A stretch of 64,000 nucleotides of DNA from Perlabentimonas gracilis (GTDB taxonomy: Bacteria > Bacteroidota > Bacteroidia > Bacteroidales > Tenuifilaceae): assembly GCF_011174675.1 (NCBI RefSeq), contig NZ_JAANIG010000018.1, positions 1 through 64,000 on the forward strand. The letters run 5' to 3'. The notes under the pieces were generated by a model. It made no database searches. It worked only from the letters and a program-made list of their open reading frames with translations, and was not told the DNA's origin. The translations under genes were made by a program, and so were the position numbers. The stretch's first letter is position 1; each line of letters begins with the position of its first letter. Of the stretch, positions 15,497-37,089 are shown in pieces.

Positions 15497-16753
15497 CTAT
15501 AAGTTAAAGGCGGCCTTTACCTTATCAACAAAATCTAACTTTTCCCAGGCAAAAAACTCAACCTCTTTGGTGTAGGCTGGCGCACCATTGCCACCACCCA
15601 TTTGAACTTCTTTTAGATAAAAATCGCGACCGAAGTGCCCATAGGCTGCGGTTTCTTTAAAAATAGGATTTTTAAGCCCAAAACGCTCAACAATAGCGGC
15701 GGGTCTTAGGTCGAACAGCTCGTTAATCTTTTGGGCAATCTCATGGTCGGGCATACTAACCTTTGATGTGCCGTACGTGTTAACATACACGCTAACGGGC
15801 TGAGCAACACCAATGGCGTAGGCCAACTGTACCAGTACCTCATCGGCAACACCTGCAGCCACAAGGTTTTTGGCTATATGCCGACCAGCGTAGGCTGCAG
15901 AACGATCCACTTTAGATGAATCCTTACCCGAGAAGGCACCACCACCGTGTGCACCCTTGCCTCCGTAAGTATCAACAATAATTTTACGCCCAGTTAAGCC
16001 GGTATCGCCGTGTGGCCCACCAATTACAAATTTGCCGGTAGGGTTTACGTGCAAAATGAAATCGTCCTTAAACAAATCTTTTGTGCGCTGGGGCAATAGT
16101 GCAATTACCTGCGGAAGAAGAATTTTTTCTACATCCTGCTTAATCACCTGTTGCATCACCTCATCGGCATCAAACTCATCGTGCTGAGTAGATACCACAA
16201 TGGTATGCACCCGAGCGGGTTGGCCGTTATCGTTGTACTCTATGGTTACCTGGCTTTTTGAGTCGGGGCGTAGGTACTTCATCACCTTACCCTCCTTGCG
16301 GATTTTCGATAGCTCCATAAGGATCATGTGCGACAGCACAATGGCCAAAGGCATTAGCTCGTCGGTTTCGCGGCAAGCGTAGCCAAACATCATACCCTGG
16401 TCGCCAGCGCCCTGCTCAGTTTCCTGCTCGCGCTCAACACCCCGGTTAATATCGGCCGATTGCTCATGGATAGAGGAGATAACGCCGCAGCTGTCGCCAT
16501 CGAACATATACTCCGACTTGGTGTAGCCAATTTCGCGAACAACGCCACGAGCCACCTGCTGAACATCAATATATGCTTTCGATTTTACTTCGCCACTAAG
16601 CACAACTAGCCCAGTGGTCACAAGGGTTTCGCAAGCCACCTTCGAGTCGGGGTCTTGTTTTAGGAACTCATCAAGTAGTGCGTCAGAGATTTGGTCGGCC
16701 ACCTTATCGGGGTGCCCCTCCGATACGCTTTCGGATGTAAATAAATATCCCAT
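15497..16753 (-). CDS. metK: S-adenosylmethionine synthetase
   Basis: Makes S-adenosylmethionine from methionine and ATP. Motifs are all present and in order: [17 protein letters not shown] near the N-terminus (ATP and metal binding), the [12 protein letters not shown] signature at about residue 118, [23 protein letters not shown], and the glycine-rich [19 protein letters not shown] loop at about 275. The length (418) is slightly above the usual 380-400, because of an insertion around [18 protein letters not shown] and a longer C-terminus. The gene converges on the trehalose gene. The upstream region (16754-16932) is a long leader in which I saw no known SAM riboswitch. Confidence 0.97.
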
Positions 16754-16883
16754 GCTTTTTGTAATTTAAAAGATTATTAAAAAAAGTTGGGAAGGTTTGG
16801 TAGAATTGCAGGACAAAAACACTGTTTTAGCATTTTTTATTGTGGTTGCAATCAATCAAATCTTTCCACTAATATTTGAACTG

Positions 16884-24246: not shown

Positions 24247-27072
24247 TTACTCTACCAATTCGTATCCCATTTCCCCTTTTTCGGTTTGGGGAATTCCGTA
24301 CTTCAGCCATTTGGGTGCAGGTGCATCCTTTAGGTAATGGTCAAAAAACTGCTGCATACGTATGGTCCAGTCAATTCGATTGGCGCGGCGTACCAAGTTG
24401 TGCGCCTCGTCGTTGTAGTTTATCATCCAAACGGGCTTTTCGAGCCTGCGCAGGGCAAGGAATAGCTCAATGCCTTGGTACCATGGCACTGCCTCATCGG
24501 CATCATCATGGCGAATAAGCAGCGGGGTGTTTACCCTTGGCGCATAGAACAGGGGCGAGTTCTCTATGTAGTGCATTGGCCGATCCCACAGCGTAGCTCC
24601 AATTCGGCTCTGGGTGCGCTCGTACTGGAACATACGCGCCAAGCCGCTCCCCCAGCGAATTCCACCGTAGGCGCTGGTCATATTGCTAACCGGCGCACCC
24701 GCCGAGGCGGCTTTAAACAGGTCGGTTTGGGTAACTAGGTAGGCAATTTGGTAGCCACCCCAGCTCTGACCCTGAACGCCAATCCTATTAATATCAACAA
24801 AACCTCTGTTAACCATTGCCATGGTGCCGCTAATAATGGCATCGTAGGCACTTCTTCCCGGAAGCCCCTCGAGGTATGCAATATCGGGCATAAATACGAT
24901 GTACCCATTGCTAACGTAGAATGTGGGGCAGATAACCGAGCGCCCGGGCGCTGGCTTGTGGTGTGTGTGCAGGTTATCGGCATGGCGCTCGTAAAAGTAA
25001 ACCATCATGGGGTACTCTTTGGTGGGGTCGAAATTTTCGGGAAGGTAAAGCAACCCTTCCACCTCATTGCGGTTAAAGTCGTACCACTTGGTAAGCTCCA
25101 CGGATCCCCATAAGTATTGACTTTGCTGCGGATTGGTGCTAGACAGCTTGGTGCTGTTGGTAAAGTTAGCGGTGCTAACCCAAAGATCGGGGTACTCATA
25201 ATACGACTGGCGTGTCCACAGCAGTGTGGATAGATCCTCGCTGTTGGCCCTTACCGAATATCGGTATGGCTCCTTCAGCATCACCCTTGGGGTGGTTGAC
25301 CGTCCAGGAACCACCATCGCAAAACCCGATTGCTTGGTCATCTCATCGAAAAGTGATACCATCATCGATTCGCCCGAAGGGATTCCTTCGTTTTCAGTGC
25401 TTAACCTTTGGTATCGATACCTTATTTTATTGGCCTCTCCGTGGCCATTGGTAAGGCAAATGGGGCTTCTTCGACCACCAACATCCACCTGCCAAATATC
25501 GTAACGGTCATATATCAATAGTGTTCTTCCATCAGTAAGCCAATCTGCCATTCCGTATGGTCGGGGCTCACTTGGCCTATCATCTGCCTCGTTGTAAAAA
25601 TTAGTGTTAATGCCGTTTGTAAGGGGAAACGATTTCATATTTCGCGTATTCATCCCATACCAAGTACTGTCCGATGGTTGGTAAAAAGCCAAATACTTAT
25701 CATTGGGCGATATGGTTGGAAAGCTAGAGTTATTCTTTGCAATTAGCCTTCGCTCACCCGAATCAATATCTACTAAATAGTAATCGCTTCCCGTGGGGTA
25801 ATCCCAGGTCATACTCCACATATAGGGCGTTCTATCTACGCCAATGGCGTATTTGGCATTGCCCCTGGGGTCGGTTCTAACCATCTCCATACGCCTATCG
25901 GCAAGCTGCGTGTAGGTTTCCTTTTTGATATCATACACCCCGAGAAATGACTTTCGCTGCTCCCTTCTTAGGTTTACCTTTTGCTGTGTCTGCAACAGGG
26001 TATCAGTCCAGCTCCAAAGGTCAAATATTACCTTTTCGTCGCTAGTAAGCGTATCCTTGGGCTGTTCCATCGGTTTGGGAAAGGTTGATAGAAACAGCCG
26101 GTTTCCACTGTCGCTAAAGCGAAGCTTACCATACTGGCTAACCACCCAGCCACTTGGTACTCCTGCCGATGAGGCGTCGAGTATTTTGGTAGCTTGCTCC
26201 TGCTCCTCTTTCCATAGGTACAAATCGAAAATCTTTACCTTTCCAGAATCGGCGCTAAAATGGAAGGTCAACATTTTACCATCCTTGCTAAAGGTAAGGT
26301 TCATCAATTCACCTTTCTCCTGAAAGATTTGTTTGCCCTGTCCTAAGTTGGCATCAAAAAGCGTTAAAACATTTTGCTCTAGGGAGTCGGCACTGGTATG
26401 CGATATGGCGACATAGTTCCCTTGCTCGGCAAAAACGTAATCCTCTACGTACAAAAACTCTTGGGTAGATTTATCATTTGTATTTAGAAGGGTTAGTAGG
26501 GTTTCCTTCTTTTTCGATTTCTTCTTCGGCTTGCGCGCAGGCTTGTCTTCAATCTTTGTGGAATCAGCTGCTTCTTCGGCTTTGGGCTCTTGTGCTTTAT
26601 ACTCGGTTAAAATACCAACCCATTGTCCATCCTTCTCTCCAAATCCAAAGTTCTTAACCTTGCTATAGCCAAACCACTCGTCGGAATGTGGGAAGTACAC
26701 TCCACCCGAGTCCTTTGGCATTTGGTCGGGCTTCTTTTTGGCCAGCTTGGCCTTGCGAACCTCAGCCTTGGTGGGTTTAATGGTAAAAGCGACAAAATTG
26801 CCATTGGGGGCGAGTTGGGCACGGGTTCCGCGCTCAAACATCTTCTCAAAATCTCTATTCCGATTAGTAATATGCAGCACTCCATCGCCATCCTGCGGAT
26901 TTATCTCAAAAGAAATTAAACCGTTACGTAGCGAGATGTTTGGTCTTTCCATATCTTTCCACGAGTCGTACACATCGTGGGTTAGGGGAATTTTTTGCCC
27001 ATGGGCAAATGTTGAAGCAAGCAGCAATGCTGCAGAAAACAAAGTGAAAATGGTTCTATTCATGCGAAACAA
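24247..27072 (-). CDS. Secreted S9 family prolyl oligopeptidase-type peptidase
   Basis: Serine peptidase of clan SC. A signal peptide of about 25 residues leads to the periplasm or outside. Residues about 40-640 form a long beta-propeller-like region made of WD-like segments, with a Lys-rich linker near 180. The C-terminal 260 residues are an alpha/beta hydrolase. The nucleophile elbow is GQSWGGYQ, the acid is in HDDADEAVPW and the His in NDEAHNL. Family members release dipeptides from peptide N-termini. At 941 residues it is longer than the 700-residue DPP4 type and resembles Bacteroidota peptidases of this size. It is divergent from the cysE leader region. Confidence 0.93.
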   Translation of the reverse strand: MFRMNRTIFTLFSAALLLASTFAHGQKIPLTHDVYDSWKDMERPNISLRNGLISFEINPQDGDGVLHITNRNRDFEKMFERGTRAQLAPNGNFVAFTIKPTKAEVRKAKLAKKKPDQMPKDSGGVYFPHSDEWFGYSKVKNFGFGEKDGQWVGILTEYKAQEPKAEEAADSTKIEDKPARKPKKKSKKKETLLTLLNTNDKSTQEFLYVEDYVFAEQGNYVAISHTSADSLEQNVLTLFDANLGQGKQIFQEKGELMNLTFSKDGKMLTFHFSADSGKVKIFDLYLWKEEQEQATKILDASSAGVPSGWVVSQYGKLRFSDSGNRLFLSTFPKPMEQPKDTLTSDEKVIFDLWSWTDTLLQTQQKVNLRREQRKSFLGVYDIKKETYTQLADRRMEMVRTDPRGNAKYAIGVDRTPYMWSMTWDYPTGSDYYLVDIDSGERRLIAKNNSSFPTISPNDKYLAFYQPSDSTWYGMNTRNMKSFPLTNGINTNFYNEADDRPSEPRPYGMADWLTDGRTLLIYDRYDIWQVDVGGRRSPICLTNGHGEANKIRYRYQRLSTENEGIPSGESMMVSLFDEMTKQSGFAMVVPGRSTTPRVMLKEPYRYSVRANSEDLSTLLWTRQSYYEYPDLWVSTANFTNSTKLSSTNPQQSQYLWGSVELTKWYDFNRNEVEGLLYLPENFDPTKEYPMMVYFYERHADNLHTHHKPAPGRSVICPTFYVSNGYIVFMPDIAYLEGLPGRSAYDAIISGTMAMVNRGFVDINRIGVQGQSWGGYQIAYLVTQTDLFKAASAGAPVSNMTSAYGGIRWGSGLARMFQYERTQSRIGATLWDRPMHYIENSPLFYAPRVNTPLLIRHDDADEAVPWYQGIELFLALRRLEKPVWMINYNDEAHNLVRRANRIDWTIRMQQFFDHYLKDAPAPKWLKYGIPQTEKGEMGYELVE

Positions 27073-27178: not shown

Positions 27179-27186
27179 TATATTTG
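27179..27186 (+). promoter_or_regulatory. -7 promoter element of the cys leader
   Basis: TATATTTG matches TAnnTTTG exactly and lies 20 bp before the leader-peptide ATG. TTTG occurs at 27161, a spacing of 14 bp, shorter than the usual 19-21. Confidence 0.6.
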
Positions 27187-27205
27187 TACCCTAATAAACA
27201 GGCAG

Positions 27206-27298
27206 ATGATTCATTTACAAAATTATATTAATACCGTTTGTTGTTGTTGGTTTGCAAACCAAACGCGAAGGGTATGCCCATACACAATGCATCTGTAA
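27206..27298 (+). CDS. Putative cysteine-sensing leader peptide (30 codons) upstream of cysE
   Basis: A small open frame of 30 codons from ATG 27206 to TAA 27296. Codons 12-14 are three consecutive TGT cysteine codons (27239-27247), followed by Trp, and a fourth Cys is codon 24. The 16-bp palindrome TTGGTTTGCAAACCAA (27247-27262) begins at the end of the Cys run. An intrinsic terminator follows at 27326-27354, before cysE. The upstream gene is transcribed the other way, so the terminator has nothing to end except this leader. The arrangement is that of amino-acid attenuation: lack of charged tRNA(Cys) would stall the ribosome on the Cys run. No RBS consensus is evident, as is usual for this phylum. 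The peptide itself need not have a function. Confidence 0.72.
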   Translation: MIHLQNYINTVCCCWFANQTRRVCPYTMHL

Positions 27299-27325
27299 TA
27301 GATTAATTTGACAGGTAAAATAGTG

Positions 27326-27354
27326 AGCCCTTCCATTCTGGAGGGGCTTTTTTT
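27326..27354 (+). terminator. Attenuator terminator before cysE
   Basis: A 10-bp stem (AGCCCTTCCA with TGGAGGGGCT, one G-T pair), loop TTC, then seven T. It lies 27 bp after the leader stop and 16 bp before the cysE ATG. GAAGGG at 27267-27272 inside the leader could pair with CCCTTC of the stem (27328-27333), giving an antiterminator. Confidence 0.82.
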
Positions 27355-27370
27355 ATAATATCATCACGCC

Positions 27371-28141
27371 ATGAAGCACGAGAAATTTAAAACATTGCCA
27401 TCGAAGTTAAGCACCATTAGTTTTACAAATAATTTGGTTCACAATCTTTTCCAATTTATTGATGGCGGAAGGCCCAAAAGTATTAGCAGAAGGAAACTCG
27501 AAAAGCAGCTAAAGGCTTTGCTAAAAAAAACGCCCACGGTTGAGCGCTACGCCCAACAAGAATTAGCCAAAAAATTTATGCTTTCGTTGGATAGCATAAA
27601 AGAACAGCTTCTTACCGATGCTACCTTTATTGAGGGAAACGATCCTGCAACCACATGCGTTGAGGAGGTGGTAATGACCTACCCCGGATTTTTAGCCATT
27701 GCGGTTTACCGGTTAGCCAATAGGCTGAAAACATTGGGTGTACCTCTTATTCCAAGGATAATGACCGAGTACGCTCACTCCCAAACGGGAATTGATATTC
27801 ATCCCGGGGCAAGTATCGACAGCCCATTTTTTATCGACCATGGAACCGGTATAGTGATTGGCGAGTCGGCAGTAATTGGAAAAAGAGTAAAACTTTACCA
27901 AGGAGTAACCATTGGTGCACTTAGCGTAAGCAAGGAGTTGGCCAGAGTTAAGCGCCATCCCACAATTGAGGATGATGTGGTAATATACGCTGGTGCTACC
28001 ATACTTGGTGGCAAAACTACCATTGGTATGCGATCCGTAGTAGGTGGTAATGTTTGGCTTACCGAGAGTGTACCCCCTTTTTCCATTGTACAACACGACA
28101 ATAAGGTGAGGATAACAACCCGGGATTACTCGTTGAGTTGA
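27371..28141 (+). CDS. cysE: Serine O-acetyltransferase
   Basis: First step of cysteine synthesis: acetylates serine with acetyl-CoA to O-acetylserine. The C-terminal part is a left-handed beta helix of hexapeptide repeats with the CysE signature GIDIHPGASIDSPFFIDHGTG (residues about 138-158; His and Asp in the active site), then GVTIGALS, DVVIYAGATILGGKTTIG and SVVGGNVWL. The N-terminal 100 residues are helical, as in long CysE forms, but without the usual strong N-terminal similarity. The tail is short (DYSLS), so the C-terminal peptide that usually docks in CysK is not the canonical Ile-ended one. cysK follows on the same strand 202 bp downstream, separated only by repeats. Regulated, in my reading, by the polycysteine leader. 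Confidence 0.93.
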   Translation: MKHEKFKTLPSKLSTISFTNNLVHNLFQFIDGGRPKSISRRKLEKQLKALLKKTPTVERYAQQELAKKFMLSLDSIKEQLLTDATFIEGNDPATTCVEEVVMTYPGFLAIAVYRLANRLKTLGVPLIPRIMTEYAHSQTGIDIHPGASIDSPFFIDHGTGIVIGESAVIGKRVKLYQGVTIGALSVSKELARVKRHPTIEDDVVIYAGATILGGKTTIGMRSVVGGNVWLTESVPPFSIVQHDNKVRITTRDYSLS

Positions 28142-28343
28142 AAGATAGGAAGTCGGAAATTAGAAGACAGAAGTCGAAAGTCAGAAAGTCGAAAAGTCAA
28201 AAGTCAATAAACACAATCATTCAACCAATCAATCATCCCTGCCTGCCGCAAACGTCAGTCAGGCAGGCAATCAATCAACCTGCCCTCCGACATCAGTCAG
28301 GCAGCCTGCCTGCAGGCAAGCAGGGTCAACCAATCACTTAATC
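28142..28343. repeat. Repeat-filled spacer between cysE and cysK
   Basis: The first 70 bp are a degenerate run of AAGTC/GAAAGTC units. The rest holds GCCTGCC/GGCAGGC hairpins (28241-28247 with 28262-28268, and a second set at 28279-28325). The CCTGCCTG type is also found at 37171-37257 and 58466-58497. No gene is present. Confidence 0.7.
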
Positions 28344-29255
28344 ATGAAAATAACAACATCAACACAGCTAATTGGTAACACACCGCACTTGCGGTTAGGT
28401 AAACTTTTCCCAAATCACGAGGTGTGGATAAAATTGGAACGTGCCAACCCAGGTGGCAGCATAAAGGATAGAATTGCGCATGCCATGATTTCCGATGCCG
28501 AAGGCAAGGGACTGCTAAAACCGGGGGGTACAATTGTTGAGCCTACCTCGGGCAACACGGGCATTGGCCTTGCGCTGGTTGGAGCGGTAAAGGGCTATCG
28601 GGTTGTTTTGGTAATGCCAGAGTCGATGTCGGCTGAACGGCGAATGCTGCTGAAAGCATACGGAGCAGAGCTTGTTCTCACATCAAAAGAAAAGGGCATG
28701 AAGGGAGCAATAGCTAAGGCAAAGGAAATTGTAGCCAATACACCGTGTGCATTTATGCCTATGCAGTTCGAGAATTTGGCAAACCCAGAGGTGCATATGC
28801 GCACTACCGCAGTGGAGGTTATTAACGATTTTCCCGAGGGCATCGATTATTTAATCACCGGTATTGGAACTGGTGGGCATATTACGGGTGTGGGCAAAAC
28901 GCTTAAGGAGGCATTTCCACAGGTTAAGGTGATAGGCGTTGAGCCATCTGCCTCAGCTGTAATAAGTGGTAATGCATCAGCACCGCACCCATTGCAGGGC
29001 ATTGGCGCTGGGTTTATCCCACCAATACTTGCTTTGGATATCCTAGATGAGATGGTGCAGGTACAGGGCGATGAGGCATATTCAATGGCTCGGCAATTGG
29101 CAAGAACAGAAGGGGTTTTGGCTGGCATTTCAACAGGTGCATCGCTGGCTGCCATTGCAAAAGTGCTAGCTGCTATTCCGTTTGGTAAAACCATTCTCAC
29201 TTTTGCCTACGATACGGGTGAACGATACCTAAGCGTTGAGGGGCTCTGGGAATAG
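28344..29255 (+). CDS. cysK: Cysteine synthase A
   Basis: PLP-dependent O-acetylserine sulfhydrylase, second and last step of cysteine synthesis. The PLP lysine is in GGSIKDRIA (about residue 37-42), the phosphate loop is [11 protein letters not shown], and [14 protein letters not shown] is the second phosphate-binding loop. [11 protein letters not shown] near 270 and the C-terminal YDTGERYLS complete the family pattern. At 303 residues it matches CysK rather than CysM or a cystathionine synthase. It ends before a 16-bp perfect hairpin. Probably co-expressed with cysE. Confidence 0.95.
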
Positions 29256-29263
29256 TTTTAAAT

Positions 29264-29308
29264 ACTCACGGGGTGATTACTTGCTATGTAGATAATCACC
29301 CCGTGAGT
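29264..29308. terminator. Hairpin between cysK and the DUF1847 gene
   Basis: Perfect 16-bp stem (29264-29279 with 29293-29308, GC-rich CACGGGG/CCCCGTG core). No long T run follows on the plus strand, but the location between convergent genes supports termination. Confidence 0.7.
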
Positions 29309-29311
29309 GGT

Positions 29312-29860
29312 TCAAGTTAGCTTTTTCTGGTAGCAGCTCGAGTAAAGCGTGGCGACGGTATTGTGCCTGGTAACCCTATCCTTTACTATAAATGTTGTAA
29401 CGGGTGCTTGGGAATACTTGGTAAAAAGTATATCATGGCCAATGCATAGCCCAACAATTATGTTCAAATCGGTTTTTAAATCGTTAAGCACCATGGCTTG
29501 TCCTATTGGGTTACAAATGGCTTCATACCTATCGCACATAATTTGAGGTAGGTCTAAATCTTTTTTGTTGACACCTGAAAATTTGCAGCAGATGGTATGC
29601 ACGGTAAATTTTTTATCAGGCACATCCTTTAGCAGCTTGGCCTCGTTGTTTAGTCCAACGCAGTGGGCGATGCCAATTTGCTTATAACCCATTTGCTCGG
29701 CAAAGCCCATAATTTCCTCAAGCCGTGTCCATTCCGTGTAGTGCTCGCCCTCAATACGGGTCGATACCTCAAGAATTTTTCTGTTATCTGGATTTTTATA
29801 CTCTTCCAATGTACGTGGTGCGAACCCCTTTAGGTTTTGGCCGCTTAAAAAACTTTTCAA
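29312..29860 (-). CDS. DUF1847 (cysteine-rich, probable metal-binding) protein
   Basis: Member of the DUF1847 family of Cys-rich proteins. Visible marks are AHCVGLNNEA, VHTICCKFSGV, MCDRYEAICNPIGQA, VGLCIGHDILFTKYS and the closing RHNTVATLYSSCYQKKL. The regularly placed Cys and His suggest one or two metal sites. In this family the function is not known; links to redox metabolism or metal trafficking have been suggested only by context. It is convergent with cysK and has its own gap of 212 bp upstream. Length 182 residues is normal if the N-terminal 45 residues, which are less conserved, are real. Confidence 0.8.
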   Translation of the reverse strand: MKSFLSGQNLKGFAPRTLEEYKNPDNRKILEVSTRIEGEHYTEWTRLEEIMGFAEQMGYKQIGIAHCVGLNNEAKLLKDVPDKKFTVHTICCKFSGVNKKDLDLPQIMCDRYEAICNPIGQAMVLNDLKTDLNIIVGLCIGHDILFTKYSQAPVTTFIVKDRVTRHNTVATLYSSCYQKKLT

Positions 29861-30072: not shown

Positions 30073-33000
30073 CTATTGGGTTGATTCACTTAAAAATTTC
30101 GTTAATATTTTCCTCACTAAAAATTTACAATCGGTTGCTTTATCTCTTGAAAGTAGCATTGTGTGTGCAGATTTATTTCTGTACTTTCTCAATAACTCTG
30201 TCAAGTCTGCTATAAAATCATCTGCATATAATTCCGGTGAATAATTCTCATTTATGAACTCGTAAAAGTCTTTAGTAATCTCGCTTCTATCGAGCAAAAA
30301 ATCATCATTAAGATTCGAGAGAATATGACACATATTACCTAAGGTATAGGTGGTGCGATTATTAACTACCATATTGGCAAATAGTGAGGTCCTTTTACTC
30401 TGTAAATCGTATTCGTAAGTAATATTTGTATGTGGATTCTCTGCACGAATAAAATTAGTAAATGGTATAAATAATTTTAAAAGCATTTCGCTTTCTACTG
30501 CCCTTGACATTTGAAGAATGTAGGGGCTAAAGTCTTCCGAAGATTGGAAAACAAGAGTATCGTTTAAGTATTCGGCAGAAATTAAAAAGCTGAAACTTTG
30601 CTTTTCAAGTTTTTTGGCATCTTTCAACATGCTCCGAATACGGGCATCAAAAGTTTTGGTATCGGTTGGAGTTACCCCGTCAAGGAATGTATAAATCTTT
30701 TCTTGCAATTCTTCATTGTCGACAAAATCTTCACCCGATTCTTTGGATACTTCTTTTATGGTTCTAATTATATTTTCAATATTAGAAGTAAGCAATTCTT
30801 TCATCACCACTTTTACCATTTTTTCCAATGAGCCAGCAGACTTTATTTTATCTTTTGGTAAGCTATAGAATGTAGCAAGTTGCTCCCCCTGAGTTTTAAT
30901 TTCTTCCGGTTTAGCATCTTCCTTTTGGGGTAAGAAGGCGACGGTAGGGAATTCTTTGTATGAATTTAAAACATCATGAACCTCTGAAGAATTAAAAACA
31001 ACTGCCCAATGCCATTTGCCAAAACGTTTTGTTTCATTTACAGCTTTTACCCAAAGGTTTAAGAATTCCCGTTTAACGCGGTTCTCATCACTATCCTGTC
31101 CTTTTACTTCAAGAATTAGCTTATCTCCATTTGTCAATTCAATTATATAATCAGGGATGTAATTCTTTAGAACTCCACGATAATTGTATTTTACAAAGAA
31201 TCCTAAATGGTCGTTTTTTACAAAAGCACGCACCATTTCATGCTTGTTGATGATGCTTGCATTGTTGGCTTCCCATGTACTGTCAAAAACGGTGTAGTTC
31301 ACGTGCGATTTTTCGTGCCATTCATTGGGTTTAGAGCTATACCATGTTGGCATATCGGAGGTTGACCGAATAGGTCGCTCGGCATCAAAAACAGGTGAAA
31401 GCACTTCGGCGTTCTGGTCTTTGATAGCCATACCAAAATGCTGAATGATTCTTGAAACATTAAGGGTTAGCAGAATATTTCTTCGTACTTTGTCACGATT
31501 GAAAAGGTTACTTTTGATTATTATGCGGTTGGATTCTAAAAATTCCTCGGTAAGTTTTAACAGTTGTGCTAAAAAGTCGTATTGATTTCCTTTCCAATTG
31601 TATTTTTGAGTACCGAAAATACTAGTAGCCACTTTAAAAATGACAGATTGTAAGCGATACCTTTCGGTGAATTCTTTAATATCAATCTCACTCATTTTTG
31701 AAGGGATGATAGCTTCTTTTAGTTGATAGCCAAACTCCACTTCTGTAATGGTATCTTCTGGGTTTATCTCAATGGGTTTTACTTCGTTGTAATCAATTTG
31801 CAGCGATGATTTGTAAATGGTATCAATCCGTAATATATTCGGAAACGACAATTTAAAATTACTCTTTTCCTTAGTTGGTTCAATCTGCATTTTTGGTTTT
31901 GGAGGACGAGGTGTAGATGCTCCACCTTCATGAGGGATAAAGGAGAAAGGAACACCAAATATGTTTACATATTCCGGCTCCAACATTAGATTCTCGTCAA
32001 ATTCATAGCTTACACGGCGTAAACCACGGCCAACAACCTGTTCGCAGAGTAACTGACTAGAAAATGCCCGTAATCCCATTATCTGGGTAACATTTTTAGC
32101 ATCCCAACCTTCGGTTAACATGCCTACACTAATTACATTTTCTATTTTTTCTCCGGGTTTTCCGGGTTTTCCAACTGTATCGACTTTTTCGCGGAGTTGT
32201 TGAGCCTGTTCCAGCTTTGAACCGGAAAGGGTATCATCTTCATTTTCTATTTTACCTATAATCTGGCTGTCGATTTGCAAGGTTCTTTCTGTGTTGCATA
32301 TCTCTTTTACGTTGCAGCTACCAGAATCGAAATAGTGTTTAATACGGTCAGCAGTTACGGTTGTATTGGCAATGGTAATCATTACCGGGGGAATATTGAT
32401 GTTTTTTACCTTTTCCCATTCCTTTTTTGTTTTTAGCCAATCGCTGGCCAATAAGTCATATGCATTAGTAACTAATTCTGGCAAAACGGTTTCTTTTGGA
32501 ACCTGTTTTTGATTCAGGTCAACCTTTACATCCTCATCCATATAGATGTGATACAAACGGGATTTATAGTCGGAAGTATATTTCCCATCATCACGAAAAA
32601 CAACACGTGGTGTTTTTACCAAACCCGATTCGATAGCATCATTTAACCCAAAATCACTGATTATCCATTCGTACAATCCACCTTCGGTAGTTTTTTTACC
32701 CGTTGGGGCATAAGGCGTAGCAGAAAAATCATGGCAACGTAAGATATTTACCTGTTTGCTTAGTTTATCTAATCCCCCAATCCAAACCGTATTGTCAATA
32801 TCTTCTTTTTTAACCTGCTTAACCTTACTTTCACCTGCTGTACGCCATGCATGGTGGGCTTCGTCGTTAATTACAAGAATATTGCGTACATTGGCCATAT
32901 TGCCTAATACAGCTTTTGCATATGCCGAATCGCTAATCTCCATTTGCTTGCGTTTGTCCACGCTACGAAGCTGACCTTTTTCTACTTTAGCGTCCAATTT

Positions 33001-33702
33001 ATCCTGCGAATCCCAGGCCAGCATGTGCCAGTTTATAATTTTAACCTGTCCAAGCCTGAGCTTGTCCATTAAGGTTGTTGGCACAATATTAAACTCATTG
33101 TAATAGTTGTTCTCATCGGCAGGTTGTAAAACCGCAAGTCTGCTCTTTACTGTCAGGCCAGGAGCAACCACCAAAATATTTTTCGAAAACCGGGAATCTT
33201 GCTTATAAGATACCTTGTTAAGAATATTGTATGCAATAAGCATGGCCATTACGGTTGTTTTTCCTGAACCAGTTGCCATTTTATTACACCAGCGGATAAA
33301 TTCCCCACCATCGGATGGAATTGTAATACCAGTTTTATAGTGTTCGGGGGCTTCAATTAGGAACATAATTACCTGAATGGCCTCCAATTGGCAAAAGAAG
33401 AAAGGGTTTGTTCGGAGGTTTTTGTCTTCCCAATGCTCCAGCAGCTCGCGGCTAACACCGGTAAGGCCGGGACGGTTATCCGCCTGCCATTCTTTAATTC
33501 TTTTCCGAATATGGTTTACTAAAGGAATCTCAATAAATTCGCCTACAACTACACCTTTTTTTGAACTAGGACTTGCTATAGTATATCCTGCGGGGCGACG
33601 GCCTTCTTGCTGAAAAAACTCCTGTGTTTGGGCATCTCTGTCCCAATAAGCGTGAGGCTCATTATAGGGCGAACAGAGGATTAGTTTGTCAATTTGTTTC
33701 AT
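30073..33702 (-). CDS. Type III-like restriction enzyme (Res) with SF2 helicase and PDDEXK domains
   Basis: Restriction subunit that would translocate or switch on DNA and cleave unmethylated sites together with the Mod protein. The helicase part has Walker A WCNKMATGSGKTTVMA (about residue 138-153), DEAH box INDEAHHAW (about 278), motif III-like DFSATPY, and motif VI QVVGRGLRR (about 555). The C-terminal half has a PD-(D/E)xK candidate, PDYIIELTNGDKLILEVKGQ, at about 850. At 1209 residues it is larger than classical EcoP15I Res (about 970) and matches the longer Bacteroidota type. It is the last gene of a three-gene operon (Mod, DinD, Res) with 5-7-bp gaps. Target sequence unknown. Confidence 0.88.
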   Translation of the reverse strand: MKQIDKLILCSPYNEPHAYWDRDAQTQEFFQQEGRRPAGYTIASPSSKKGVVVGEFIEIPLVNHIRKRIKEWQADNRPGLTGVSRELLEHWEDKNLRTNPFFFCQLEAIQVIMFLIEAPEHYKTGITIPSDGGEFIRWCNKMATGSGKTTVMAMLIAYNILNKVSYKQDSRFSKNILVVAPGLTVKSRLAVLQPADENNYYNEFNIVPTTLMDKLRLGQVKIINWHMLAWDSQDKLDAKVEKGQLRSVDKRKQMEISDSAYAKAVLGNMANVRNILVINDEAHHAWRTAGESKVKQVKKEDIDNTVWIGGLDKLSKQVNILRCHDFSATPYAPTGKKTTEGGLYEWIISDFGLNDAIESGLVKTPRVVFRDDGKYTSDYKSRLYHIYMDEDVKVDLNQKQVPKETVLPELVTNAYDLLASDWLKTKKEWEKVKNINIPPVMITIANTTVTADRIKHYFDSGSCNVKEICNTERTLQIDSQIIGKIENEDDTLSGSKLEQAQQLREKVDTVGKPGKPGEKIENVISVGMLTEGWDAKNVTQIMGLRAFSSQLLCEQVVGRGLRRVSYEFDENLMLEPEYVNIFGVPFSFIPHEGGASTPRPPKPKMQIEPTKEKSNFKLSFPNILRIDTIYKSSLQIDYNEVKPIEINPEDTITEVEFGYQLKEAIIPSKMSEIDIKEFTERYRLQSVIFKVATSIFGTQKYNWKGNQYDFLAQLLKLTEEFLESNRIIIKSNLFNRDKVRRNILLTLNVSRIIQHFGMAIKDQNAEVLSPVFDAERPIRSTSDMPTWYSSKPNEWHEKSHVNYTVFDSTWEANNASIINKHEMVRAFVKNDHLGFFVKYNYRGVLKNYIPDYIIELTNGDKLILEVKGQDSDENRVKREFLNLWVKAVNETKRFGKWHWAVVFNSSEVHDVLNSYKEFPTVAFLPQKEDAKPEEIKTQGEQLATFYSLPKDKIKSAGSLEKMVKVVMKELLTSNIENIIRTIKEVSKESGEDFVDNEELQEKIYTFLDGVTPTDTKTFDARIRSMLKDAKKLEKQSFSFLISAEYLNDTLVFQSSEDFSPYILQMSRAVESEMLLKLFIPFTNFIRAENPHTNITYEYDLQSKRTSLFANMVVNNRTTYTLGNMCHILSNLNDDFLLDRSEITKDFYEFINENYSPELYADDFIADLTELLRKYRNKSAHTMLLSRDKATDCKFLVRKILTKFLSESTQ

Positions 33703-33707
33703 GCGCC

Positions 33708-34559
33708 TTACTTTTTCTTCTTCTGTTCTTTTTGGGCTTCTTTCAATACTTTCTTTTCATCACTGGCCAGCCTTCGTTCTATTTTCTTTATATCTTCTGC
33801 CGGTGGAAGTTCTTCAGGCTTTACACCCCGTTCGAGTAGCATTTTTCGTACAGCCATGTTGTTATCAATATGCTCTTTTGATATTTGCCGGTCGCCCTTT
33901 AAATCTTTTTCAACCACATTATGGCTGGTTAATTCGGTAGCAAAGTCTTTGGCTTTGATGGTAAGGGTAGGCAGAAAATCGGCCAATGGCCTGCCGGTGG
34001 GCACCATTAGCCGGTTTTTCATAAACAAGGTTGTCTTTCCGCCAAATAAAGCCTGGTCGCCTTTGGAACGAATAATGGCAAAACTCTTCTCGTTTACGCC
34101 CCGTTCATAAATAATCCCCGATAATTTTTTTTCAGTTTTCGATAGCTTGTTACGGGCAGAAACCCTAGCTACATCCAGTAAGCGTTGCTCAATTAATTCC
34201 TGTTTGCGGGTTTGTACGGCAAAATAGGTTTGGGCAAAAGCTACTTCGGGTTTTGAGGGGTCGCCATTTTGAGCTATCAGATAGCATGCATATCTTGTGA
34301 GCGCAATGTCTTTTATCTCTCTTTCCGCACCCTTAGCGAGTTTTATCATTTTGTTGACATCAACAAAATGATTGGAAATTGTTTCTCCGGCATTATCACA
34401 AGATTGGGCTGCTTTTTCAATCACTTTCTGAAAATTTCGCCATTCGGTGTAATTGAATATTTCTTGCAGATCCCTTGCGCTCCAACACTCCAAACCCTCG
34501 TGAACATAACAGGCATCTTCAAATTTTTGAAACAGTTCTTGAATAAATTCCTTTTTCAT
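33708..34559 (-). CDS. dinD: DinD-like DNA-damage-inducible protein inside the R-M operon
   Basis: Homologue of DinD (BRO-N-like fold), which in E. coli is induced by DNA damage and binds RecA. The N-terminal 110 residues show the family pattern ECWSARDLQEIFNYTEWRNF, VDVNKMIKLAKGA and LTRYACYLIAQNGDPSKPEVAFAQTYFA. The central part has GVNEKSFAIIRSKGDQALFGG, and the C-terminus ends in a charged Lys-rich coiled segment (EKKVLKEAQKEQKKKK). It is 283 residues, near full length. It starts 7 bp after the Mod stop and ends 5 bp before the Res start, so it is clearly co-translated in one operon. A role in guarding the host genome or regulating the nuclease is inferred only from this position. Confidence 0.88.
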   Translation of the reverse strand: MKKEFIQELFQKFEDACYVHEGLECWSARDLQEIFNYTEWRNFQKVIEKAAQSCDNAGETISNHFVDVNKMIKLAKGAEREIKDIALTRYACYLIAQNGDPSKPEVAFAQTYFAVQTRKQELIEQRLLDVARVSARNKLSKTEKKLSGIIYERGVNEKSFAIIRSKGDQALFGGKTTLFMKNRLMVPTGRPLADFLPTLTIKAKDFATELTSHNVVEKDLKGDRQISKEHIDNNMAVRKMLLERGVKPEELPPAEDIKKIERRLASDEKKVLKEAQKEQKKKK

Positions 34560-34566
34560 GATTGGA

Positions 34567-37089
34567 TTATCGAGTGATAATTTTTAAACTCTCAATGCCC
34601 CTGTCATCGATTATTTTTATGGCTATTTGTTTGCCCGGTGCAAAGGGCAATGACTCTGTTCCCCGGAATGCTTCAATTTTTTCTTCATCAATTTCGGCTT
34701 TCAAGTTTTTGGCCAGTTTTGCCCAACCATCGGTAGCCCCGGCCATAGGGAAAAATACCTGTTTTGGGAAAAGGCTGCGGCCATCGTAATCGGTATCGAG
34801 TAACCACATGGCAATGTTTTTCTTGCCACCACTTTCAATGCTTCCGTTTTTGGGATTGAAATAGTCGAAGCCCATTACTTCAATTCTCACCATTCCTTTA
34901 TCTTCGCCATCGGTAATTTCATGCAAACGGACATCGGGCTGGCCAATAAGCCAAAAACTTTGGTTGGTATTACGGTTCTTTTTTAGGTCTTCGGTTTGCA
35001 AGTCCATGTTCATTTGGGCTTTGAGCAGCTTGAAACCAATACTTGCTTCCGGTATTTCATCAATATCTTTGGCGGCTTCTTCATCGAACTGGAATGCACA
35101 AAACAGTAAAATATCGGGCTTCATATAGCGTGCTTCATCAATGGCCAGCTCAACAGTGCGTTGCTCCAACGGGGCATGTTCGGGGCCAAAAACCACTAAA
35201 ACCTGTTCGGGTTTGCCTCCACCTTCGGCTGCGCTCAGGGCAGGCTTAGTTTCACCCTGAGCCTGAATATATTTTGTGCCCGATATGGCTTCCATGCGGC
35301 TAAACTCAATCATGGCACCCCCTTTGGCGCGCACACCTGTGCGTGCTAATTCATCGCGCCATTGGTCTTGCCGTAAGGTTTCTCCTGTACGGGTAACCGA
35401 TTTGTCGGCTTCCATTTCGCTCTCCAATGCTCCTTCCAAATCTTTTACGAAGGGTGCTGGGATGCTTTCTACGGTGAAAGGGCCGGTTATACGGGTTTTC
35501 TTCGAGTCTATTTTAGGTTGGTCGTAAAGAACCTCTTCACCGGGTGGTTCGTTGTTAGCTATACTTTTTAACGTAATATGAGGAACAGTTTTGTAATTAA
35601 AACCACCTGATATTCCTTCGTCCAACCTTGCAAGTTGATAATAATCAAAATTAGATGTCATTAATCTTTGCTTTGCTAATGTTAAGGCTATTCTTGAGGT
35701 ATCACAGGTTATCCATCGTCTGCCCCATTGTTCAGCAGCAAATGCAGATGTACCACTACCACAAGTAATATCAAACACAATATCTCCTGGATTTGTCGTC
35801 ATTAAGATACAGTTTTGAATAACCTTATATGAAGTTTCAACGACATAGTTCTTTTGAGTACCTAACATCATTGACTCCCATCTATCTGTGATAGGAATTA
35901 CTGGAAAGTCATCAACAAACCTTCTATATCGAAGCACAGAGCCCATAATCTCTATTCTATTCGCCTCTGCGAGTTTTTTCATGCCTTCTAAGGTGGTTTT
36001 CCAATGTGTATCAGAGCGTGGTTTATAAATCTTTCCTTCGAATTCAAAAGCCTGTTCTTTTGATGATGCCCCATCAGAATACAAGGCTGCTAATTGGTAT
36101 CTCTTACCTGATTCATCTATAATACCTGTTTCTACTTCTTTCTTTGATAATCTCCGTGTTGTCCCATCTTCTTTTAGAAGCATGTCATATCTATCAAGAG
36201 ATGTATCTCCAATTTCGCGAAAACGATAAAGTTGATTATATTTTACCTTTCCCTTATCCTTTGAATACCATAATAAATAATCTACAGTTGAAGCTAAAAC
36301 CTTTGTTTCCTGTCCACTTGTTTTTTGAAAACTTATTATTCTAACGAAGTTTTGAACTCCAAATACCTCATCCAAAATCTCTTTTACATGATGCATATTT
36401 TCATCAGAGATTTGAACAAACACACTTCCGCTTTCATGCAACAGCTCTCTTGCGAGAAGTAATCTATCCCTCAAGTAAGTTAAATATGAATGAATTCCTA
36501 ATTCCCAAGTATCACGAAATGCTTTAATCATTTCAGGTTCATGTGTCAAATCATCATCACTACCATCCTTAACATCCTTTTTATCGATAAATGGTTGAAA
36601 ATTACTACCATATTTAATACCATAAGGAGGGTCAAAATAGAGCATCTGCACCTTGCCGGCCATTCCTTCCTTTTCAAGAAGGGAATTCATTACCAAAAGG
36701 CTGTCGCCGGCAATAAGGCGGTTTGTCCAGCCTTCCTTGTGTTTGTAAAATTCTATGGCTTCGCGCAAGGGTTTGTCGTGTTGCTCAAACAAGGACATTT
36801 GCTGGTGTTTTGCACCTTCCTTCTTTACCGTATCTATTATTGATTTTGGATCGATACGCTCATGAACATGCAGCGAAACGGTAGGAACTTCAAACGAGGT
36901 ATGTTCGGCTTTGCCTGCCCATTGCAGCTGTGGGTCGAGGTGTGGGTCGTACTCGTATTTTTTCTTTTTTTGTCCGGTTTCTTTGTCGGTGTTTTTATTT
37001 ACCAGCCCAACAGGTGGGTTGTTTAACCTTTCTTTGTCGGAGTGCTTGTATTGCTCTATGCTTATCGCCTGTTTTGCTTTTTTTGCCAT
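34567..37089 (-). CDS. Type III-like DNA methyltransferase (Mod), with an in-frame REP-derived insert
   Basis: N6-adenine/N4-cytosine-type methyltransferase of the beta class. Motif IV is FDPPYGIKYG at about residue 152, with the AdoMet motif I late at about 440 (FDITCGSGTSAFAAEQWG), which is the beta order. The C-terminal half (500-840) is target recognition and contact with Res. It starts with a Lys-rich 50-residue tail before the first conserved block, and 840 residues is longer than typical Mod (about 650). Around residue 618 a short segment PALSAAEGGG interrupts a conserved stretch and its DNA matches a REP-like repeat (35222-35245). First gene of the operon; the start is 16 bp from a MITE-like element. 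Confidence 0.88.
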   Translation of the reverse strand: MAKKAKQAISIEQYKHSDKERLNNPPVGLVNKNTDKETGQKKKKYEYDPHLDPQLQWAGKAEHTSFEVPTVSLHVHERIDPKSIIDTVKKEGAKHQQMSLFEQHDKPLREAIEFYKHKEGWTNRLIAGDSLLVMNSLLEKEGMAGKVQMLYFDPPYGIKYGSNFQPFIDKKDVKDGSDDDLTHEPEMIKAFRDTWELGIHSYLTYLRDRLLLARELLHESGSVFVQISDENMHHVKEILDEVFGVQNFVRIISFQKTSGQETKVLASTVDYLLWYSKDKGKVKYNQLYRFREIGDTSLDRYDMLLKEDGTTRRLSKKEVETGIIDESGKRYQLAALYSDGASSKEQAFEFEGKIYKPRSDTHWKTTLEGMKKLAEANRIEIMGSVLRYRRFVDDFPVIPITDRWESMMLGTQKNYVVETSYKVIQNCILMTTNPGDIVFDITCGSGTSAFAAEQWGRRWITCDTSRIALTLAKQRLMTSNFDYYQLARLDEGISGGFNYKTVPHITLKSIANNEPPGEEVLYDQPKIDSKKTRITGPFTVESIPAPFVKDLEGALESEMEADKSVTRTGETLRQDQWRDELARTGVRAKGGAMIEFSRMEAISGTKYIQAQGETKPALSAAEGGGKPEQVLVVFGPEHAPLEQRTVELAIDEARYMKPDILLFCAFQFDEEAAKDIDEIPEASIGFKLLKAQMNMDLQTEDLKKNRNTNQSFWLIGQPDVRLHEITDGEDKGMVRIEVMGFDYFNPKNGSIESGGKKNIAMWLLDTDYDGRSLFPKQVFFPMAGATDGWAKLAKNLKAEIDEEKIEAFRGTESLPFAPGKQIAIKIIDDRGIESLKIITR
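35222..35245. repeat. REP-like sequence inside the Mod reading frame
   Basis: 24 bp with the core CCTTCGGCTGCGCTCAGGGC, a palindrome-like repeat of a type I know as interspersed in many bacterial genomes. On the coding strand it yields PALSAAEG, a peptide often seen where such repeats fall in genes. GC-rich against its neighbours and in frame. Confidence 0.6.

Follow-up and report, generated by a model that had tools for sequence, protein, structure and literature searches.

The window analysed here is a stretch of 64,000 nucleotides from Perlabentimonas gracilis (order Bacteroidales; positions 1 to 64,000 of contig NZ_JAANIG010000018.1), and it carries two neighbouring genes of cysteine biosynthesis on the forward strand. 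The first of them (27371–28141) encodes an EpsC/CysE-like serine O-acetyltransferase that matches two NCBIfam profiles below their cut-offs (EPS_EpsC, 146.7 bits, cut-off 150; cysE, 144.9 bits, cut-off 210.65), and it is named cysE here because of these scores, just under the EpsC cut-off and well under the cysE one, together with its position beside cysK. The second, cysK (28344–29255), encodes cysteine synthase A (TIGR01139, 399.4 bits, cut-off 350.95) and is probably contained in one transcript with cysE, a neighbourhood that is retained in relatives. The gap between both genes (28142–28343, 200 nt) is packed with short repeats (aagtcgaaagtcagaaagtc; cctgcctgcaggcaagcaggg), most of the corresponding gaps in relatives being short. 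Directly 3' of cysK, a long inverted repeat (29266–29306; CTCACGGGGTGATTA...TAATCACCCCGTGAG) probably marks the end of the cysE–cysK transcript and of the convergent gene at 29312–29860. Further on, the reverse strand encodes a BPTD_3080-family restriction endonuclease (30073–33702) and a protein that weakly matches an adenine methyltransferase (34567–37089), so this part of the window near cysK (30073–37089) is likely a restriction–modification system.

The gene upstream of cysE, encoding an S9 peptidase (24247–27072), runs in the opposite direction, as the earlier note on this DNA had stated. Thus, only a transcript begun in the gap can reach the intrinsic terminator located in front of cysE, and the assignment of this terminator to the upstream gene was dropped for the same reason. 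The gap holds, all on the forward strand, a complete set of leader elements. At 27179–27186 the sequence TATATTTG is a perfect fit to TAnnTTTG, the consensus of the Bacteroidota −7 promoter box, and as read from the sequence transcription would start a few bases 3' of it. A 30-codon open reading frame follows (27206–27298; MIHLQNYINTVCCCWFANQTRRVCPYTMHL), with three consecutive TGT codons (27239–27247; Cys at positions 12–14, 16 codons 5' of the stop) as the candidate stall site and a fourth Cys codon, TGC, at 27275. The 16-bp palindrome noticed earlier at the Cys run (TTGGTTTGCAAACCAA, 27247–27262) forms the top of a larger hairpin (27231–27275) revealed by folding, termed 1:2, which contains both the Cys codons and GAAGGG and pairs the former with the strand of region 2. 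Region 2 itself (GAAGGGT, 27267–27273) is the 5' half of the putative antiterminator, and region 3 (GCCCTTC, 27327–27333) is common to the antiterminator and the terminator. The terminator, 3:4 (27325–27354), ends in seven T's (27348–27354), has a stem of −17.5 kcal/mol and is separated by 16 nt from the ATG of cysE at 27371. The coordinates that the earlier note had given for the reading frame and its Cys codons were confirmed, as were the terminator with its T-run and its distance to cysE, and the pairing it had seen between GAAGGG (27267–27272) and CCCTTC amounts to a 2:3 duplex of 7 bp including one G–U (27267–27273 with 27327–27333, −12.0 kcal/mol). The folded leader region is more stable than its shuffles (z −3.4), and a short open reading frame with CCC appears in only 0.1% of dinucleotide-preserving shuffles of the upstream region of the window's cysE. 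The locus presents a short reading frame, complete from start to stop codon, whose tandem codons specify the pathway's end product; it also has a terminator before the first gene, and genes 3' of the leader that make cysteine, the amino acid that would be sensed.

A random short reading frame with three Cys codons ahead of an ordinary terminator is conceivable at a single locus, since strings like TGTTGTTGT are frequent, with 717 TGYTGYTGY sites in the window's genome. The earlier note had itself held that the arrangement would be chance if the Cys codons and the terminator were both missing from homologous regions. Upstream regions of cysE were gathered from the family, order, class and phylum of the window, and the two elements proved to be conserved jointly, within the window's family as well as in many others. 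Leader and terminator precede cysE in 14 of the 16 sampled members of the window's family (window included), examples from cysE genes of the window's type being SCCCWIIYQQEG, TTCCCCWLPNQTEG, CICCCQENAWPQG and ATCCCMWYRFVPQG; no leader was found at two loci of the family with a more diverged cysE (L014, L015). The device is also present at cysE in eight further families of this order (f29, f76, f105, f55, f87, f9, f20 and f90) and sporadically in the rest of the class (f115, f117, f180 and Capnocytophaga). Moreover, it occurs before cysK in f34 (MTLNLNISCCCCCNVSHKNGSNDCVKM), f12 (MKISAYISINCCWCCENTSKCKQFVNM) and f50 (MKINKLNNTCCCSRIKVCCR), with a different terminator sequence in each. It was absent from most of the approximately 50 other cysK upstream regions sampled, and from most upstream regions of the long-type cysE genes of the order. 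Within the window's genus, no match to the window's cysE at E 0.001 or better was obtained in four other genomes (G003–G006), which are 94–98% complete, and cysE with its attenuator may have been lost in them or gained in the window's species.

In total, 34 leaders have runs of 2–5 Cys residues at the corresponding place, with synonymous TGT/TGC changes and in-frame interruptions (CCICC, CCACC, CCWCC, CCTCCC), while the fourth Cys codon of the window's leader is not kept in relatives. When a terminator was required within 140 nt and a reading frame with at least two consecutive Cys codons was scored, the Melioribacter-like group being left out, such a frame was found in 31/38 cysE upstream regions with a terminator versus 15/156 without one (Fisher p = 4e-18), and in 7% of shuffled sequences. 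Most cysE upstream regions devoid of a Cys run are also devoid of an intrinsic terminator. In the set of upstream regions, consecutive codons for amino acids other than Cys are either rare or mostly frame shadows of TGTTGT, such as Leu from TTGTTG. A search of 294 genomes with a pattern of polyCys, GGG and CCCTTCC returned 10 matches, four of them at cysE, against two with the reversed control, and the six matches outside cysE look like chance. With a looser pattern, cysE alone rose above chance in 35 genomes, and the second match in the window's genome falls within a coding sequence. As a separate observation, one cysE upstream region (L236, G499, f146) holds a reading frame (MIATLSSFQTEAQSKSFTLFNGNCCCCLCCCCSFQA) with the nine residues CCCCLCCCC, located 137–248 nt upstream of cysE, with no terminator nearby.

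The pairing between regions 2 and 3 was compared in the 34 leaders, region 2 being defined as the stretch 3' of the Cys codons and region 3 as the 5' arm of the terminator plus the start of its loop. In 25 representatives, each leader's own partners pair with a mean energy of −13.2 kcal/mol, versus −9.7 ± 0.46 kcal/mol for permuted partners; the observed energy was not attained in any of 20,000 permutations (p = 5e-5), and an identical p was obtained without the loop in 20 representatives. The co-variation of the alternative pairing with the terminator is visible in individual pairs, namely CCCUUCC with GGAAGGG (L003), CCCUUUC with GAAAGGG (L151, L128), CUCUGC with GCAGAG (L225), CACUGCC with GGCAGUG (Capnocytophaga, L079) and CCCUUCCGGUAC with GUACCGNARGGG (L011, L016). 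Since regions 2 and 3 change together, the 2:3 pairing is the conserved core of the device, an antiterminator that is mutually exclusive with the terminator and kept in relatives. The reservation that this antiterminator is too short does not hold, because in relatives the pairing extends to 9–12 bp by entering the terminator loop. In the E. coli trp leader the antiterminator is likewise weaker than the terminator, the same hierarchy as in the window (−12 vs −17.5). Conservation across families, the association of Cys-run frames with terminators and the co-varying antiterminator all stand against a fortuitous origin, and a chance reading, to which we would give practically no credence, is refuted by the association test and by the comparison of own with swapped partners.

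The spacing of these elements is also fixed. In all 34 leaders the first Cys codon is followed by region 2 at a distance of 16–40 nt, and 20–33 nt separate the leader stop from the terminator, values that fit the footprint of a ribosome stalled on the Cys codons. The corresponding states were folded in silico, the stalled state being represented by masking the RNA through the 15th nucleotide after the first Cys base and omitting region 4. In this state P(2:3) is 0.98 in the window and 0.93 on average, region 2 having been preselected as the best duplex. Once the ribosome has reached the stop codon, terminator 3:4 alone remains and forms. With no ribosome P(1:2) is 0.81 in the window, and in roughly half of the relatives 1:2 does not dominate. 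Because region 2 was chosen by its best duplex, these probabilities illustrate the switch and do not test it; that role falls to the permutation of pairing partners described above.

The anatomy, conservation, co-varying alternative pairing and fixed spacing, all shown by sequence comparison, support the ribosome-mediated attenuation proposed in the earlier note. On this ground, the cysE–cysK leader is in all likelihood a transcription attenuator of the trp/his type sensing charged tRNA-Cys, which very probably turns on the cysteine-making genes in cysteine shortage. The promoter, the translation of the leader, the stalling and the response to cysteine are the predicted components of this mechanism. 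Transcription would begin just 5' of the leader, and the 30-codon frame would be translated at once. With ample cysteine, the ribosome would pass the Cys codons and cover region 2, allowing the 3:4 terminator to form and leaving cysE–cysK untranscribed. With scarce cysteine, it would stall on TGT-TGT-TGT, opening hairpin 1:2 and leaving region 2 (GAAGGGT) free just past its footprint; region 2 would then pair with the first arm of the terminator (GCCCTTC) before the second arm exists, and the polymerase would continue into cysE–cysK.

A structured, terminator-bearing leader ahead of an amino-acid gene might also be a metabolite-binding riboswitch, or a T-box reading tRNA-Cys directly, in which the reading frame is incidental. 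However, no Rfam family reached its gathering score in the window's leader and 18 related loci, except for SAM-II elsewhere, and at a relaxed threshold the matches were weak only (e.g., Phe_leader, 23.4 bits against a gathering score of 55). Furthermore, the conservation expected of an aptamer is absent, and conservation falls instead on the Cys codons and on both arms, making such a direct sensor very improbable. The SAM-II element in the window lies on the reverse strand (16817–16875, 72.7 bits) immediately upstream of metK (15497–16753, reverse strand), which would place sulfur metabolism in the window under two RNA-level controls; a second SAM-II was found close to cysE in L225.

The attenuator requires that its leader be translated. 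Of the 34 leaders, 23 have the TAnnTTTG box 4–27 nt 5' of the start of the leader frame, and in ten of them (L006–L008, L010–L013, L135, L151 and L364) it ends just 4–5 nt before the leader ATG, a gap that suggests leaderless or nearly leaderless translation. No codon-position bias was detected, close pairs of leaders differing about equally at the three positions, and peptide conservation is limited to Cys. As the leaders carry no coding signature, the case for their translation comes from the reading frame, the synonymous TGT/TGC changes and the in-frame interruptions. The poor conservation of the peptide is as expected for a cis-acting leader, and an arrest peptide was dropped as a candidate because nothing apart from Cys is conserved.

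The leader could also sense slow translation in general, or Cys together with Met or Trp, instead of Cys-tRNA alone. A stall of any kind near the Cys codons would do, Trp often comes next after the Cys run, also in the window, and flavobacterial leaders combine Met with Cys codons (MMLFVCNMCCMMWK; MMNYTNNNMMMCC). Nevertheless, runs of 2–5 Cys are the feature common to the leaders and abundant Met is restricted to the flavobacterial ones, while the TGG codon is explicable by its base pairing with CCAA, so broader sensing is unlikely. The cysE leaders of L214 and L225 (f117) and L079 (Capnocytophaga) mix Met with Cys (MMLFVCNMCCMMWKNPQSITIA; MMNYTNNNMMMCCTSQKAVSASLCH), a composition that would suit the sensing of both sulfur amino acids. 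Their terminators differ, and the antiterminator still matches its own terminator in each.

A different design appears in the Melioribacter-like family f128 and in Melioribacter metagenome-assembled genomes, where several cysE genes (L169, L171, L177, L179, L186 and L189 in f128; L036, L037 and L056 in Melioribacter) are preceded by a reading frame ending in a Cys run (CACCCC*, CICCCN*, CTCCCC*). In these upstream frames the Cys run, often CCCC, abuts the stop codon, no terminator is present, and a weak hairpin lies over an AGGG-type ribosome site, the hairpins being individually not significant (z about −1). By analogy with mycobacteria, they may act as translational cysteine attenuators. It is possible, though on balance doubtful, that Bacteroidota hold at least two ribosome-based cysteine sensors for one biosynthetic step. 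The one in Bacteroidia would attenuate transcription by means of a co-evolving terminator, acting at cysE or cysK, with some starts of the leaderless type and some leaders reading Met plus Cys; the Melioribacter-like one would be a translational attenuator with the Cys run at the stop of the upstream frame and a hairpin masking the ribosome site of cysE. If both exist, cysteine control would be phylum-wide and convergent with that of mycobacteria.

In the open-licence literature, neither a cysteine attenuator nor any mechanism controlling cysteine synthesis was found described for Bacteroidota, and Rfam has no family for such an element. As far as checked, the attenuator is new for Bacteroidota and for cysE/cysK. 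Small open reading frames in long 5' UTRs are documented in Bacteroides thetaiotaomicron (PMC7366714), and within the same phylum clues for leader-peptide attenuation have been reported before unnamed amino-acid operons of Flavobacterium psychrophilum (PMC9723704), a report whose main text contains no cysteine case and uses the word cysteine once, for a protease. Mycobacterial and actinobacterial polycysteine leaders resemble the window in having a short Cys-run frame before cysteine genes. Actinobacterial cys leaders have no conserved terminator (PMC1262725), and a further source describes the mycobacterial leaders as translational (PMC13236596) and cites a cysteine-responsive polycysteine leader in M. 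smegmatis (Canestrari 2020, via PMC13236596). In mycobacterial leaders the Cys run is located in the vicinity of the stop codon. The Melioribacter-like frames, with the run beside the stop and no terminator, are closer to them than the window is, whose run lies away from the stop and whose leader ends in a terminator.

The proteobacterial trp/his attenuators (Rfam Trp_leader, His_leader and Phe_leader, among others) share with the window the tandem product codons in a leader frame, the 1:2, 2:3 and 3:4 pairings, and the intrinsic terminator before biosynthetic genes. The window differs from them in using Cys instead of Trp, His or Phe, in belonging to another phylum and in having no Rfam match above threshold. 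It offers a complete switch that can be tested, with a clear prediction for an arm swap, and could seed the RNA family missing from Rfam. A counterpart for cysteine is uORFC-8-2, predicted to be an attenuator that uses Cys codons and an intrinsic terminator ahead of cysS in Rhodobacterales (PMC8632094). As in the window, its Cys codons lie within the first stem; however, it precedes a cysteinyl-tRNA synthetase gene in Alphaproteobacteria and has two tandem Cys codons at positions 14–15 (PMC8632094). The window, located upstream of cysE in Bacteroidota with Cys at positions 12–14, falls outside this definition, and the Bacteroidota device in general is found at cysE or cysK, with 2–5 Cys codons and an explicit, conserved antiterminator. 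Cys-codon attenuation with an intrinsic terminator would thereby reach another phylum and the biosynthetic genes themselves.
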